Source of the DNA: Streptococcus ruminicola
Lineage (GTDB): Bacteria > Bacillota > Bacilli > Lactobacillales > Streptococcaceae
Assembly (NCBI RefSeq): GCF_011387195.1
Contig: NZ_CP046919.1
Location: 992,001-1,056,000 of the forward strand
Direction of reading: 5' to 3'
DNA length: 64,000 nucleotides
Shown: one piece after another, positions 3,885 through 30,084 of the stretch
Layout of the letters: each line of letters begins with the position of its first letter
Position numbering within the stretch: position 1 is the first letter of the stretch
Position numbers and translations under genes: made by a program
Notes under the pieces: generated by a model
The model's database searches: none
Told to the model about the DNA's origin: nothing
Seen by the model: only the letters and a program-made list of their open reading frames with translations

Positions 3885-4739
3885 ATGAATAAGAATGAGA
3901 AAATAGGGGAACTTTATAAAGAATTACGTTTGGCAAGGGGGCTTAAACTTAAGGATATTGCTACTAAAAAACTTACCGTTTCGCAACTTTCAAAATTTGA
4001 ACGGGGACAGTCTATGTTGTCTGCAGATAGATTTTTATTAGCAATTTCTGGATTAAATATGAATTTCGCTGAATTTGCACACGCTATGGATGACTACCAG
4101 CCAAATCGTTTAACTATTTTTGCAGATAAACTTTTTACAATATTTATTTCACAAGATGTAGAAGGCTTTAAAAAGTTTTTAGAAGAAAAAGATGGGGATA
4201 GAACAATCTATGATTTTATTGAGAGGATTATCATTAAAAATAATATTAAATCCATAGAAAAAGAATATGAAATTTCCTTTTTAGAAATTGAAAGATTGAC
4301 ACAGTATTTTTATAGCATAGAAAATTGGACTGCATATGAATTGTATGTATTTGGGGAAACAGTTTCACTTTATAGTACTTTGGATTTAGTTTTTTTAGGT
4401 GAAGTTTGCTGTGAGAGAAGCAAAAAATTTAGACAGTTGGATAGTTATGTTAAACAGTACAGAAGTACACTAGCTAATCTCATTTCTGTTTTAATTAGTA
4501 GGAATGAATTAGTTTATATTAATTTTTTTATTACTGAGCTAGAAAATGATTTACGCTACTCAGATTTATTTGAACATGCAACGTTGAATTTTTTTAAGCT
4601 TTATTTAGAGTATCAAGAATCTGCTGTAAAAGATAAAAAACGGATTGTACAACATCTTCAAGCTATACGAACCCTTGGCTGTACAGAATTAGCGGCTTCA
4701 TTTGAAGAGAATTTTAATCAGTGGATAAAAAAGATTTAG
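3885..4739 (+). CDS. Rgg/GadR/MutR-family transcriptional regulator (Rgg1)
   Basis: A 284-aa cytoplasmic regulator. An N-terminal XRE-type helix-turn-helix (about residues 5-60, 'VSQLSKFERGQSML') is followed by a long all-helical C-terminal region of the kind that binds short peptides in the Rgg family. A longer reading from GTG 3837 is possible, but ATG 3885 aligns with the N-terminus of the paralogue at 12260 and is preferred. It shares 'GELY-ELR-ARGLKLKD' and the overall length with that paralogue. The following secreted peptidase and lipoprotein genes are plausible targets. No well-formed cognate peptide gene was found next to it. Confidence 0.85.
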   Translation: MNKNEKIGELYKELRLARGLKLKDIATKKLTVSQLSKFERGQSMLSADRFLLAISGLNMNFAEFAHAMDDYQPNRLTIFADKLFTIFISQDVEGFKKFLEEKDGDRTIYDFIERIIIKNNIKSIEKEYEISFLEIERLTQYFYSIENWTAYELYVFGETVSLYSTLDLVFLGEVCCERSKKFRQLDSYVKQYRSTLANLISVLISRNELVYINFFITELENDLRYSDLFEHATLNFFKLYLEYQESAVKDKKRIVQHLQAIRTLGCTELAASFEENFNQWIKKI

Positions 4740-4901
4740 AGTAATTTTTTATTTCAATATTTTAAACCTTTTTGCCTAATAGTATTACATTAATCAATAG
4801 GTGTGCGGACATCAATTGTAAAATTAGAAAATGAAGATGGCAGTAATTATCAAATTTGCGAAAATAATAAAATGGACTAATTTTTTGATATATTTGTTTT
4901 T

Positions 4902-10473: not shown

Positions 10474-12123
<1,650 letters not shown>

Positions 12124-12147
12124 TCCAAAATTCGAATAGATTAATTA

Positions 12148-12180
12148 GAAAGAACACCTCAAGCGAGGTGTTCTTTTTGT
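12148..12180 (+). terminator. groE operon terminator
   Basis: The 11-bp stem AAGAACACCTC/GAGGTGTTCTT with loop AAGC is followed by Ts. Confidence 0.9.
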
Positions 12181-12259
12181 TGATTATGTGATTTATTTAT
12201 CTAAAAAGAATTTGATATAATTAAAAAAAGCAATTTTTTAGAAAGAGGGGTGTGTTATC

Positions 12260-13135
12260 ATGGATGAAAAAGAAATGATGAGCTTAGGCGAGCTATATCG
12301 TGAATTACGTATGGCGCGGGGCTTAAAGTTAAAAGATGTTGCTGGTCAGAAGTTGTCAGTTTCGCAGTTATCAAAGTTTGAAAATGGGCAAAGCATGCTT
12401 ACAGCAGACAAACTTTTAGTGGCGATTTCAGCGATTCACATGAGCTTTTCAGAATTTGGACACGCCCTGAATCATTATCAAGAAAGTTCTTATTTTAGAC
12501 TTGGAAACCAGTTGGCTAATTTACAAGTGGCTGGTGATATTGAAGGCCTTAAAGAGGTGCTGAAAAATTTTGAAGCTGACGAAAATTTTGATACCTATAA
12601 TCGTTTGACGAGGATTGATATTGTCAGTGCTATTTATGCCCTTGATCCAAGTTATGAGATTAAAGAAGATGATAAGCAATTTTTGACGCAATATCTCTAT
12701 AGCATCGAACAATGGACAGAGTATGAACTTTATCTTTTTGGAAACACCATGTCGATTTTATCTGATGCTGATTTGATTTTCTTAGGAAGAGCGCTTGCTG
12801 AACGCAATGAATTTTATCTGTCACTTCCTCAACATAAAAAAGCTGCGCAGTTGACCTTTATTAATATTATCTTAGCTTTGATTGAGCGTAATCAGCTTTA
12901 CTACACGACTTATTTTATGATTAGGCTAGAAAGCATGATTAATTATCAAGACATGTTTACCGTAGTATTTTTAACCTTTTTAAAAGATACCTTGGCTTAT
13001 TTGAAAGGTGAGACTGATGATGTTCAACCGATGAGAGAGTGTATTGAAATGGTTAAAAAATTAGGAAATCCTACAATGGCTAAGCTCTTAGAGGAACATT
13101 TGGAACAATATTTAAAACAATATAAAAAAGGCTAG
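12260..13135 (+). CDS. Rgg/GadR/MutR-family transcriptional regulator (Rgg2)
   Basis: A 291-aa protein with an N-terminal HTH ('VSQLSKFENGQSML') and a long helical C-terminal domain. It is a clear paralogue of the regulator at 3885. AGAGGGG precedes the ATG; a TATAAT lies at 12216-12221. Rgg proteins commonly respond to short secreted or internalised peptides encoded beside them. Here a 20-aa hydrophobic peptide gene converges on it 47 bp after the stop. The pairing is inferred from gene order. Confidence 0.88.
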   Translation: MDEKEMMSLGELYRELRMARGLKLKDVAGQKLSVSQLSKFENGQSMLTADKLLVAISAIHMSFSEFGHALNHYQESSYFRLGNQLANLQVAGDIEGLKEVLKNFEADENFDTYNRLTRIDIVSAIYALDPSYEIKEDDKQFLTQYLYSIEQWTEYELYLFGNTMSILSDADLIFLGRALAERNEFYLSLPQHKKAAQLTFINIILALIERNQLYYTTYFMIRLESMINYQDMFTVVFLTFLKDTLAYLKGETDDVQPMRECIEMVKKLGNPTMAKLLEEHLEQYLKQYKKG

Positions 13136-13156
13136 GCTGTCAACTTCCTAGCCTCT
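13128..13156. terminator. Hairpin at the rgg2 3' end
   Basis: The arms GGCTAGG/CCTAGCC (13130-13136 and 13147-13153) overlap the rgg2 stop. The T-run is poor on the plus strand. It may act on both converging transcripts. Confidence 0.45.
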
Positions 13157-13181
13157 ATTATTAGAGAGAACAAACTTTGGA

Positions 13182-13244
13182 TTAAAAAGGCCAAATTCGA
13201 AGGCTCAGAAGAACTGTAGCCAGCAAAAATAAATTTTTGAGCAT
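13182..13244 (-). CDS. Putative 20-aa hydrophobic signalling peptide next to Rgg2
   Basis: The minus-strand ORF MLKNLFLLATVLLSLRIWPF begins at 13244. A perfect AGGAGG (13258-13253) lies 8 bases before the ATG, and a TACAAT -10 lies just upstream. A short positively charged N-terminus, a hydrophobic core and an aromatic C-terminus resemble short hydrophobic peptide pheromone precursors of Rgg systems. The orientation is convergent with rgg2, an arrangement known for some Rgg/SHP pairs. It does not have the acidic residue plus Gly-Gly end of classical SHPs. A membrane-active toxin-like peptide is the main alternative. Confidence 0.6.
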   Translation of the reverse strand: MLKNLFLLATVLLSLRIWPF

Positions 13245-13261
13245 TATAATGACCTCCTATG

Positions 13262-13335
13262 TCCTTATTGTATCGTAAAAAACAGGGAAAACTTAAGATT
13301 ATCATATATGAAAAAACAAAAATTGAATTTTCATA
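13262..13335. promoter_or_regulatory. Shared control region of the peptide gene and the structured RNA
   Basis: The inverted repeat TATGAAAA/TTTTCATA (13307-13314 and 13328-13335) lies between the minus-strand peptide promoter (-10 TACAAT, forward positions about 13267-13272) and the plus-strand RNA promoter. The peptide promoter has no good -35, as expected if an activator is needed. Confidence 0.4.
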
Positions 13336-13374
13336 TTTGCGAATTTCTAATAAGTGCTTTTTTCCGTGGTATAT

Positions 13375-13925
13375 TATACTCGTAAGTATTTGAAGAAGTA
13401 CTTACAGAGCAATATTAGTCTTGGTTAGGCAAGATGTTTTTACATGTGAATAAATCAATTGTTTGGGAGCTTTTGATTTTTGGGAGTCATGTGTGATGGG
13501 AAGTATTGCTCTAAAGGGATGGGTTTTTATCCAGGAGAGTTAGCAATATGCTAATCATGGCATCTGAATCTTTGGATTGAGATGTATAAGTCATATCTTT
13601 TTTCTTATTGAGCGACACCGTCTGTAGTATTAGTAGTATTATGCGTTCAATTACAAAAATTAGTACATTTCCGAGAGGTATGACATGAGATAGGTTTATT
13701 GAGAGTGTTTTAGCTAGGTGATTGTTCACACCAAAAAACGACTGATAACTCAGCTAGGCATTCTTGTAAACTGATTTACTTTTGACATCGTATTTTCAGT
13801 TGGGGGCAGCTGAAAATATGCTGGTGCAGCTTGACTGTATAACTTTCTGAAAAGACTGACAGCTACACTAAAAAACTTAGGAGAAAGCAAACCTTTTTGA
13901 TTTGGTAAGGTTTGCTTTTCTCTTT
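13375..13925 (+). ncRNA. Candidate large structured RNA, about 540 nt, unknown class
   Basis: The transcript would run from a TATACT -10 (13375-13380) to a strong terminator (stem 13884-13895/13907-13918). No substantial protein-coding ORF is present. Hairpins seen: 13382-13391/13396-13405; a long-range 9-bp perfect stem 13406-13414/13504-13512; AAATCAA/TTGATTT (13452-13458 and 13473-13479); TTAGCA/TGCTAA (13540-13554); 13561-13584; ATTGAGCG/CGTTCAAT; a 12-bp stem with GGGG loop (13791-13802/13807-13818); and GCTG/CAGC at 13820-13830. A chain of tiny ORFs (13434-13611, one TGATG overlap) is an alternative reading. Not 6S, tmRNA, RNase P or SRP RNA as I know them. A ROOL/GOLLD-like large RNA is possible but untested. 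Confidence 0.55.
13881..13924 (+). terminator. Terminator of the structured RNA
   Basis: A 12-bp perfect stem AAAGCAAACCTT/AAGGTTTGCTTT with an 11-base loop and a pyrimidine-rich T tail. Confidence 0.85.
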
Positions 13926-14031
13926 GGTAAAGTTATAAAATAATCGTAAAAAAGACCTGTCTGTAGTATACTAAAGGTAAGAAATGTTGGTTTAGTTTTA
14001 TATATGCTTACTGTATGAAGGGAGTAGGCTT

Positions 14032-14112
14032 ATGATGTTTTGGTTAGGTGTTGCAGGTGCTGTTTTAGGTGCGATTTATCTTGTTATTGTGGATAACAAA
14101 GATGACTTTTGA
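14032..14112 (+). CDS. Small membrane peptide, 26 aa
   Basis: AAGGGAG lies 7 bases before ATG 14032 (a second ATG follows at once). The 26-aa product starts MMFWLGVAGAVLGAIYLVIV and ends in a charged 'DNKDDF', i.e. one transmembrane helix with a short acidic tail. TATACT (13967-13972) may be its -10 and a terminator follows 8 bp after the stop, so it looks like a monocistronic gene. Function unknown. Confidence 0.55.
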   Translation: MMFWLGVAGAVLGAIYLVIVDNKDDF

Positions 14113-14117
14113 ATGAC

Positions 14118-14147
14118 AAGGGTGGCTTTTTGAGCCGCCTTTTTTAG
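14118..14147 (+). terminator. Terminator after the 26-aa peptide gene
   Basis: The GC-rich stem GGTGGCT/AGCCGCC is followed by six Ts. Confidence 0.85.
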
Positions 14148-14238
14148 GTGTCATATGGTGTGATTTTTCTGTAATGGTAGCTTAAAAAGTTTTTGGTATA
14201 ATAATGACTTAAGATTTGATGGAATAGGGAGACTAAAG

Positions 14239-15855
14239 ATGAAAAAGTTTAAACACACGCTAAAACGTAAGAAAGTCTGGATTCCTAGTGTGATTGTGGG
14301 AGTGCTACTCTTGGTCTTTGTGGTTTGGGGAAGTTTTCACTACTCTAAAAAACAAGTCATTCGAGATTACGTAGCAGCTTACCAAAAATCTGGGGATACT
14401 TTTGACAATATCAAAGGTTATATCGTTTGGGCTGATAACAATGAAAAGGTTACAACTGATGAAGCCAAGTATGCGACATTTACCAAGTTATCAAAATCAA
14501 AAGCTGACAAGCTAAGTAGGGATTTAACAAAAGCGGACGTTTCTGATGATATTTACGTCAAAAAAATCGGTCGTAAGTTTTTGATTTTCCCAAATTATCG
14601 TATCGCTTTGAAACCTTTGGATTTGACTATTAAGACGAATGTTGATAAGGTCGACATTTTGCTCAATAAAAAGAAAGTTGCGCTTAGTGATTCAACTGAT
14701 TACAGCGTCAAGCTTGAACGCTTGCCAATCGCTGATTACACGGCAAGTATTTCTGGAAAATATAATGGCAAACCAATCGAGTTAAGTAAAGATTACGATG
14801 GCAAGGACAAGGTTCTTGATTTATCGGTGACTTTTAAAAACTTTAAAGTCACAAGTAACTTAGTTGATGGTGAGCTTTATTTTGATAACACACGCGTAGG
14901 CACTTTGGAAAATGGTGAGTACGAGGTTAGTGATTACCCGTTGACAGATTCAGCTAAAGCTTACGTGAAGAAGAAATTTTCAGATGGTGATTTGAAATCA
15001 CAAAAACAAGCTCTAGCAAGTATAGCTGATGGGGATACAGTTGCTTTGAATGTCGATAATCTTTTGGATAATGAAACAGCTGGAAAAGTCTTGATATCAG
15101 CTTTTGACCAAATGATCTTGTATTTGAACGCTGGGCAAGACTCATCAACGGTATCTACGGTTTTTGAAGACGGCGGTAATAATGACTTTTACAAAGGCTT
15201 GAAAGAAAGTATCAAGGCTAAGATGCAAACTGATAGTCGCAAGGCGACAAGTCTAACAGTACCAAATATCACTTTGACCAGTCTATCTCAAGTCGGCAAG
15301 GAAACTTATGTGGCAGGATTTACAGCAACTTATGATTTCCACTACGATAAATCGACAGATACTGAAAAGCAAACATCAGGTGAAGTCATCCAAAACTTAG
15401 AAGGTAAAGTAACCTTGAAGAAAGCTGGCGCGACTTATGTTGTCGCTAATTCAGGTCAAAAGAGTATCACAGTGACAAATGAAGACAATCAAGTCAAAGG
15501 AGAGTCGCTCTTCCCAGAAGCTATGCTTGGCACATGGAAAGTCGACGATAAGAGTGATACGTCATTTACCTTTGAGGCTGATGGAACAATCACTCAAACG
15601 ACTAAAAATAATAAGAAACAAACCAAGGTTACGGGTATTGAAGACAAAGGAAATAATGTCTATCATTACCTTTACGGGGACGATGCTGATACAAGCGTCT
15701 TTACAGTTAGTGGTCTTGGCGGCGTTGGTGTTAAATATACTTTCGGTATTAAAGTCGACGGTAACAAGCTTACTCTAGTGGTATGGCAAGCAAATAAAGA
15801 TGCTGATTTTGATTACAGTAAGCCAATGCTTGGTAGCACTTTGAGTAAAAAATAA
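14239..15855 (+). CDS. TcaA-like membrane-anchored extracellular protein
   Basis: A 538-aa protein with a basic N-terminus and one transmembrane helix (about residues 13-31); the rest is outside the membrane. The repeated beta-rich domains and the 'VIRDYVAAYQKSGDTFDNIKG' region resemble the TcaA family of teichoic-acid/antibiotic-response-linked proteins. The zinc ribbon found at the N-terminus of many members is absent. The last roughly 110 residues ('MLGTWKVDDKSDTSFTFEADGTIT') resemble a lipocalin-like small domain. AATAGGGAG precedes the ATG. Role inferred only from family resemblance. Confidence 0.6.
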   Translation: MKKFKHTLKRKKVWIPSVIVGVLLLVFVVWGSFHYSKKQVIRDYVAAYQKSGDTFDNIKGYIVWADNNEKVTTDEAKYATFTKLSKSKADKLSRDLTKADVSDDIYVKKIGRKFLIFPNYRIALKPLDLTIKTNVDKVDILLNKKKVALSDSTDYSVKLERLPIADYTASISGKYNGKPIELSKDYDGKDKVLDLSVTFKNFKVTSNLVDGELYFDNTRVGTLENGEYEVSDYPLTDSAKAYVKKKFSDGDLKSQKQALASIADGDTVALNVDNLLDNETAGKVLISAFDQMILYLNAGQDSSTVSTVFEDGGNNDFYKGLKESIKAKMQTDSRKATSLTVPNITLTSLSQVGKETYVAGFTATYDFHYDKSTDTEKQTSGEVIQNLEGKVTLKKAGATYVVANSGQKSITVTNEDNQVKGESLFPEAMLGTWKVDDKSDTSFTFEADGTITQTTKNNKKQTKVTGIEDKGNNVYHYLYGDDADTSVFTVSGLGGVGVKYTFGIKVDGNKLTLVVWQANKDADFDYSKPMLGSTLSKK

Positions 15856-29709: not shown

Positions 29710-29782
29710 TCCTCCCTATAGGGCTCGAACCTATGACCCATGGATTAAGAGTCCACTGCTCTACCAACTGAGCTAAGGAAGG
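29710..29782 (-). tRNA. tRNA-Lys (anticodon CUU)
   Basis: A 73-nt cloverleaf: acceptor CCTTCCT/AGGGAGG, D-arm GCTC...GAGC, anticodon loop CTCTTAA giving CUU, T-stem ATAGG/CCTAT with loop TTCGAGC. CCA is not encoded. It reads AAG codons. It lies directly 3' of a 6S RNA gene on the same strand. Confidence 0.95.
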
Positions 29783-29789
29783 ATAATAA

Positions 29790-29970
29790 GCTGTATTGGC
29801 ACCGTGATCCACGCTTTGTATTGAACCCGCGATCTTAAAGCAGGTGGGCAACTCGCTTCTCCTTAGTCGCTTCCGCGTGTGACGGCTTGCATACTGGAGA
29901 AAGACTACTGTTTCCCGAAATACAAAAATTTAGTCGGTCAACACATTGATGTGAATTCGTATGCCACAGC
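29790..29970 (-). ncRNA. ssrS: 6S RNA
   Basis: About 180 nt folding back on itself: the 5' end GCTGT-GGCA pairs with the 3' end TGCC-(AAT)-ACAGC, with paired arms around a central open region, as in 6S RNA, which binds sigma-A RNA polymerase. The minus-strand promoter is TTGAAA, 17 bp, TATCAT (forward 29987-29992). Its position just upstream of tRNA-Lys matches my memory of other streptococci. Exact ends are estimated. Confidence 0.75.
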
Positions 29971-30084
29971 AATAACCTATGTAATTATGATACCACTTTA
30001 AAAAATTTTTTCAAGGGATAAACTGAAATTTTAGAAAGCGTTTTTTGAAAAAGCTCAAGAAAACTTACAGAAAGTAGGTCGTAA

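Follow-up and report, generated by a model that had tools for sequence, protein, structure and literature searches.

A structured RNA of about 540 nt in Streptococcus ruminicola, divergent from an Rgg-associated pheromone gene, as a candidate output of peptide quorum sensing

A structured RNA of about 540 nt lies at 13382-13926 (+) in the 64,000-nt stretch of DNA analysed here (the window, which is G000:C1:992001-1056000 in a host genome, G000, of 2.05 Mb). Both ends are predicted, the start being placed at about 13382. It is very probably a real structured RNA gene, apparently non-coding, and our preferred reading, to which we give a probability of about 0.6, is that it is an output gene of the Rgg/SHP peptide quorum-sensing system beside it. 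The features of the locus are as follows.

12260-13135 (+): rgg, a 291-aa Rgg-family regulator (Pfam Rgg_C, E 1.4e-36; TIGR01716, E 7.9e-55), convergent with shp
13182-13244 (-): shp, the ORF of a 20-aa hydrophobic pro-pheromone, MLKNLFLLATVLLSLRIWPF, ending RIWPF
13267-13272 (-): TACAAT, the -10 from which shp would be transcribed, placed 22+3 nt downstream of its box
13298-13314 (-): box of the shp promoter, TTTTCATATATGATAAT, with 3 mismatches to the RNA box
13328-13344 (+): box of the RNA promoter, TTTTCATATTTGCGAAT, 17 bp, the proposed Rgg site, kept in 9 genomes
13367-13375 (+): extended -10 of the RNA promoter, TGG TATATT, without a -35, at the same place in 9 genomes
13382-13405 (+): hairpin at the 5' end (helix 1), present also in the diverged copy of genome G221
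13406-13512 (+): 5' domain, closed by helix 2 (11 pairs, 5 with double changes)
13590-13684 (+): central domain, closed by helix 10 (GUCAUAUC/GGUAUGAC), its order and pairing readable in G221
13779-13875 (+): 3' domain, 97 nt, highly invariant (covariance model R1), including the GGGG-capped hairpin
13881-13922 (+): intrinsic terminator-like stem with a long conserved loop (helix 18)
14034-14114 (+): ORF of a 26-aa membrane peptide, MMFWLGVAGAVLGAIYLVIVDNKDDF, with its own TATACT -10

The sequence 13382-13928 (+) folds with a minimum free energy of -161.2 kcal/mol (z -4.80), and none of 100 shuffled sequences was equally low. As the minus strand of the region is also foldable (z -3.95), the strand of the RNA was inferred from its promoter and terminator. 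The initial annotation, made from the sequence alone, had proposed a hairpin-rich RNA between its own promoter and terminator; its coordinates were essentially right, with the start at about 13382 and the terminator stem ending at 13922. Its statement that the region holds no substantial protein-coding ORF was also borne out. On the plus strand the RNA region contains no ORF of at least 30 aa (an ORF from upstream reaches to 13393). The longest ORF preceded by a Shine-Dalgarno sequence (SD) in the window's copy is 24 aa, and no SD-preceded ORF of at least 8 codons was found to be common to the eight copies of the RNA detected by sequence. That the transcript is translated or has a dual function, giving at least one very small peptide in the manner of other box-driven genes, seems to us quite improbable: an AGGAGA-type motif precedes a 10-codon ORF in five of the eight copies, and TTG-started frames of 24-26 codons occur in several S. 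equinus-group copies, but the frames differ in G037 and G138, G234 has no SD-preceded frame of that minimum length, and the base changes on both sides of pairs described below fit an RNA structure. A scan against Rfam, at the gathering thresholds and at E values up to 10, returned no family, in agreement with the earlier remark that no standard RNA is matched; sub-threshold matches, seen also with the G221 copy, were taken as chance.

The structure was derived from an alignment (A6) of seven of the eight copies detected by sequence, that of G234 being omitted owing to a deletion in its 5' domain. A6 begins at the predicted end of the RNA, because an alignment with the promoter included (A2) gave helices reaching into the promoter. 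RNAalifold on A6 gave 160 pairs, counted as 18 helices, and 95.3% of the 1112 cells are paired in this structure. The covariation analysis that the initial annotation had proposed did not show evolution without compensating changes: in this small and closely related set, and with a structure derived from the same alignment, 20 base pairs are changed on both sides, compared to a shuffled mean of 9.5 (0 of 500 shuffles reached the observed number). Slid versions of the structure contained only 1 to 8 such pairs. Of the 20, 16 are located outside the terminator. Helix 10 of G138 is seemingly misplaced in A6, and the count was kept as computed. One of the five measures, that of further pair types, gave no excess (70 against 70.7, reached by 356 of 500 shuffles). 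On A2, columns of the promoter were paired with those of the RNA as well, a few of them with double changes, and single helices may therefore be false.

The many stems described at the outset are present, although their number, put at a minimum of eight, was too low. The long-range pairing is likewise real, and as helix 2 it joins 13406-13416 to 13502-13512 by 11 pairs, not 9; the GGGG-capped hairpin (13789-13820, loop 13803-13806) has 14 pairs, not 12. The terminator stem, 13881-13893/13909-13922, has 4 pairs with double changes. Its loop is longer than the terminator scanner allows, and its U-rich tail is weak in the window and better in relatives. Positions 13896-13906 of this loop, UUUGAUUUGGU, are invariant in the seven aligned copies while the stem covaries, which suggests that the loop has a use of its own. 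The deletion in the G234 copy (L015) apparently occurred between short TTTTGATT-type repeats and leaves 461 nt, compared to 538.

Judged from its sequence, the RNA most likely belongs to the regulon of the Rgg/SHP system, since a box with 22-nt spacing is common to the RNA, to shp and to SHP-like genes elsewhere. At the RNA, TTTTCATATTTGCGAAT ends exactly 22 nt before TG(N)TATATT in all eight genomes with a copy detected by sequence (one has 1 mismatch), and when G221 is included the box and spacing are present in 9 of 9 genomes, with 0-2 mismatches (2 in G221). Relative to the predicted start the box spans about -54 to -38, and there is no proper -35, which is why a generic sigma-70 scan found no promoter at the RNA; its sole site in 12100-14300 lies elsewhere. 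The RNA and shp boxes are on opposite strands, 30 bp apart centre to centre. In seven of the eight genomes shp is preceded by a box with 1-3 mismatches at the same 22-nt spacing; the exception is G233, which lacks the gene, and among the seven the shp ORF of G096 is itself degenerate. The RNA had been described as divergent from an Rgg-associated peptide in a joint regulatory locus. The first part is correct, the peptide being the 20-aa SHP at 13182-13244 (-), and the second is supported by the shared box with its identical spacing. Transcription of the RNA probably responds to an Rgg/SHP pair of this type.

The same arrangement is found at other genes. G000 has just one further site when up to 3 mismatches to the 19-base version of the box are allowed; it lies before a 76-aa ORF, at 22 nt, and the ORF upstream of this gene is presumably PhoH-like. 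Box and spacing precede a gene of 72-78 aa in G000, G037, G232 and G061, and one stopped after 15 codons in G096, a genome that also has a broken rgg. The products of this gene (L038, L040, L041, L039 and L043) start MCNGTSLEELNK... or MDNRE..., and the two members scanned gave no confident family. In G234 the box and spacing stand before three hydrophobic ORFs of 58-77 aa. Directly after the RNA terminator in G037 (L005, 1083-1376, minus strand) a 97-codon gene is found, and its box is a weak one, with 4 mismatches at 22 nt.

Across the genus the box was found within one mismatch in 31 of 284 Streptococcus genomes. In the 23 of these without the RNA one site each was examined (L070 gave no row), and in eight (G036, G154, G043, G055, G098, G042, G149 and G073) a 20-aa hydrophobic SHP-like ORF with an SD follows the box by 22 nt. 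The box in G175 precedes a 44-aa cationic, Trp-rich peptide that resembles a bacteriocin. Several other box sites in genomes without the RNA have no -10 and look like chance. Among the sites available as loci, TANNNT is at +25 in 30 of 44 distinct sites, the next highest offset reaching 12. With the groEL-locus rows removed it is at exactly +25 in 22 of 36 sites, and at any other offset from 15 to 39 in at most 8; one of the 22 (L042) is the shp of G234, ie the figure outside the groEL locus is 21 of 35. G248 (L065, L112) has nine box sites within one mismatch, and ahead of a 21-aa SHP-like ORF there is a box with 2 mismatches; the genome possibly has a large box regulon.

The RNA occurs in 9 of the 284 Streptococcus genomes, in eight detected by sequence and in one, G221, detected as a diverged copy by synteny. 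BLAST gave six of 197 genomes (including G146, later discounted) and then eight of the 284, and R1, the covariance model of the 3' domain, found the same eight; in genomes drawn from the order R1 matched 2 of 295, both Streptococcus and both already known. Over the 400 nt compared, the copies of four relatives are identical to those named S. equinus Sb04 (G233), Sb05 (G232) and ATCC 9812 (G037) and S. vicugnae SL1232 (G061), which places the RNA in the S. bovis/S. equinus group. Three candidate matches were dropped: G146 (L007, 48 nt, from the genus-wide BLAST) as chance, its sequence reading as coding; G211 (L008, 25 nt, from a search of 59 relatives) as chance, in coding-like sequence; and a Peptococcaceae match to a 19-nt pattern (L020), in a GC-rich, coding-looking stretch.

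The link to mobile DNA suggested initially was not upheld. The RNA is located after groEL in 9 of 9 genomes carrying it, no match was found in 50,697 phage records and 72,556 plasmid records, and none in viral contigs, which were searched with one 19-nt pattern. A mobile-element or phage-borne large ornate RNA of the ROOL, GOLLD or HEARO type, for which the size, the hairpin richness and the initial suggestion speak, can be given hardly any credence against this genomic record and the lack of an Rfam match to any of the three at E values up to 10. The RNA resembles ROOL, GOLLD, HEARO, OLE and raiA in size class and in its many helices, but it matches none of them at E values up to 10 and no mobile context is seen here.

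The ninth copy was located through Rgg. A search at E 1e-100 matched 13 of the 284 genomes, G221 among them, and its locus has groEL, an Rgg at 63% identity and a 20-aa peptide ending RIWPF. Divergent from this peptide there is a box with 2 mismatches, 22 nt and then TGGTATAGT; before the shp of G221 no box was found within 5 mismatches at the 22-nt spacing. The RNA-like stretch (L110, 2605-2948) is about 345 nt long, with a fold z of -4.68. It opens with the same 5' hairpin, the sequences of helix 10 (GGUCAUACC/GGUAUGAC) follow one another as in the other copies, and the GGGG 3' domain is lacking. When compared by BLAST to three sequences, its promoter and first hairpin align to G061 (E 1.9e-10) and the remainder aligns only weakly; homology of the interior therefore rests on order, pairing and synteny. 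It gave no Rfam match at E values up to 1, including ROOL, GOLLD, HEARO, OLE and raiA. R1 misses this copy (its best score is on the wrong strand) because the 3' domain is lacking, and surveys made with R1 therefore undercount.

The RNA exceeds rgg in conservation when the window is set against the two nearest of the three relatives compared. Identity between the window and G096 is 99% for the RNA and 95% for rgg, and with G061 it is 89% for the RNA, 83% for rgg, 80% for the start of the tcaA-like gene and 67% for the rgg-shp gap. With G138 the RNA is hardly better conserved (RNA 73%, rgg 71%, shp 73%). The 26-aa ORF downstream is as conserved as the RNA (91% and 89% identical, respectively, with G061). 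It follows the RNA in seven of the eight genomes, as it would if the RNA were a long cis-acting leader, or attenuator, of this membrane peptide gene. That reading is very improbable: the ORF has its own TATACT -10 in the sequence, it is missing from the available G138 locus, where a 430-aa ORF, presumably transposase-like, follows the RNA, and in G037 the 97-codon gene with its own weak box intervenes.

An SD-preceded RIWPF peptide is found in 7 of the 284 genomes, ie in six of the eight with a copy detected by sequence and in G221, and all seven carry the RNA. G196 (L120) has a SIWPF ORF without a box. Of the eight genomes, five (G000, G232, G061, G234 and G138) have an intact local rgg. In G096 and G037 the gene is broken and in G233 there is none, yet the box and the RNA persist in all three. 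Since the RNA persists where the local rgg is lost or broken, its dependence on Rgg may be partial, or may have been taken over by a paralogue with a box that differs by 3-4 bases. A second, paralogous Rgg, 53-61% identical, is present in all eight genomes (in pieces in G138), and in all eight its gene adjoins a variant box (3-4 mismatches), 22 nt and then its own short peptide ORF, of 20-24 aa or, in G138, 47 aa. Its presence could explain the persistence of the RNA in G233. For comparison, Rgg2 and Rgg3 of S. pyogenes share 55% identity and recognise one promoter sequence, located in the -35 region (PMC4162386). Disruptions affect both rgg and the second box target of G096, yet the RNA is 99% identical to that of the window, and this reflects either recent decay or an Rgg-independent use of the RNA.

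In six of seven paralogue loci (L086-L092) there is a 24-aa ...PFFVYYP peptide, followed by a hydrophobic peptide ORF of 28-29 aa. The window contains another rgg at about 3900-4736, 42% identical to the groEL-side rgg. After it comes a degenerate box at 4847-4863 (+) (3 mismatches), with TGATATATT at the 22-nt spacing, and then a 229-aa ORF whose start resembles a signal peptide.

The persistence in G233, where neither rgg nor shp is present at the locus, and in the two genomes with a broken rgg (G096 and G037) would also fit a constitutive structured RNA with a housekeeping or RNP role, on which the box imposes modest control only. The near-invariant 3' domain points the same way, and the extended -10 could work without an activator. 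Such an RNA would not be expected to be limited to 9 of 284 Streptococcus genomes and, by its 3' domain, to 2 of 295 genomes from the order, both Streptococcus, nor to accompany every SD-preceded RIWPF pheromone (7 of 7) and to keep the box and its 22-nt spacing in 9 of 9 genomes, and we regard this reading as unlikely.

The closest parallel to a quorum-sensing output RNA is found in staphylococci. RNAIII of the agr system is hairpin-rich, about 510-540 nt long, and divergent from the pheromone genes with a shared regulatory region. The regulator of agr is a two-component system, and RNAIII encodes delta-haemolysin (hld) and base-pairs with target mRNAs. The RNA described here is similar in size, in hairpin richness, in its divergence from a pheromone gene and in the regulatory region between divergent promoters, and both would be quorum-sensing outputs. 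It differs in that the regulator would be a cytoplasmic Rgg with an imported peptide, and in that no hld-like SD-preceded ORF of at least 8 codons is shared among the eight copies. RNAIII has a model in Rfam, which the RNA does not match at the gathering threshold or at E values up to 10. Because of this and of the lack of a shared small ORF it is not a member of RNAIII; because the arrangement is the same as at agr P2/P3 and RNAIII, it may work like it. The streptococcal CiaR-dependent csRNAs and FasX are regulatory RNAs under dedicated regulators, but they are much shorter and their regulators are others. The window also has a 6S RNA at 29710-29975 (-), directly beside tRNA-Lys.

As in Rgg/SHP systems, the locus has an Rgg, an adjoining hydrophobic pro-peptide and a site near the -35 position without a proper -35. 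With the Rgg2/Rgg3-SHP2/SHP3 system of S. pyogenes (PMC4162386), the likeness covers an Rgg with a short hydrophobic peptide, an activator site in or near a poor -35, and a pair of paralogues, about 55% identical there; here, in contrast, shp is convergent with rgg and its product ends RIWPF, and a divergent large RNA is among the box genes. RopB of S. salivarius binds just upstream of a putative -35 (PMC10518010). RtgR/RtgS of S. pneumoniae also has a Trp-containing pheromone, and an inverted repeat in its promoters is required for induction; it controls a peptide-export locus, and its description makes no use of the term 'small RNA' (PMC7018657). Rgg/SHP pairs form a major class of streptococcal peptide quorum sensors, and the outputs described for them in the literature consulted are proteins and peptides. 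Searches on Rgg/SHP, RNAIII and RIWPF, in sources with sparse coverage of subscription papers and preprints, named no Rgg-controlled RNA among the matches listed. The words 'small RNA', 'noncoding' and 'non-coding' do not occur in a 2026 Rgg/SHP review, and in the text of a 2024 survey covering 50 bacterial genomes Streptococcus is mentioned for three other motifs only. It is possible that the RNA has already been reported elsewhere as an Rgg-controlled output.

As an output of the Rgg/SHP system the RNA would act as follows. By analogy with known Rgg/SHP systems, the 20-aa product of shp would leave the cell, be processed into a short pheromone with the ending RIWPF and return by import. Rgg with the pheromone would bind the 17-bp boxes, just upstream of the missing -35s, and the bound Rgg would recruit RNA polymerase to the -10 sites of the two divergent promoters. 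Activation would raise shp, ie positive feedback, and on the other strand the RNA of about 540 nt. With its conserved loops and nearly invariant 3' domain the folded RNA could then act in trans, on other RNAs or on a protein, and so carry the quorum signal further at the post-transcriptional level, in the way that RNAIII serves agr. We slightly favour a trans-acting regulator. A target search on 47 starts of the window gave a mean of -9.53 kcal/mol, compared to -9.6 for shuffled sequences, ie no signal, and none was seen on three leaders of the locus and regulon.

More tentatively, and at odds that we put a little below even, the RNA represents a new family that serves as a dedicated trans-acting effector of the Rgg/SHP circuit, the agr-RNAIII layout having evolved independently in streptococci with a one-protein cytoplasmic receptor. 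If so, evolution would have arrived more than once at a design in which a quorum sensor drives a single large regulatory RNA, and the locus would offer a compact test system of one receptor, one 20-aa gene and one RNA. The promoter rule, ie 17-bp box, 22 nt and -10, predicts members of the regulon in other streptococci, including short-peptide and bacteriocin-like genes.
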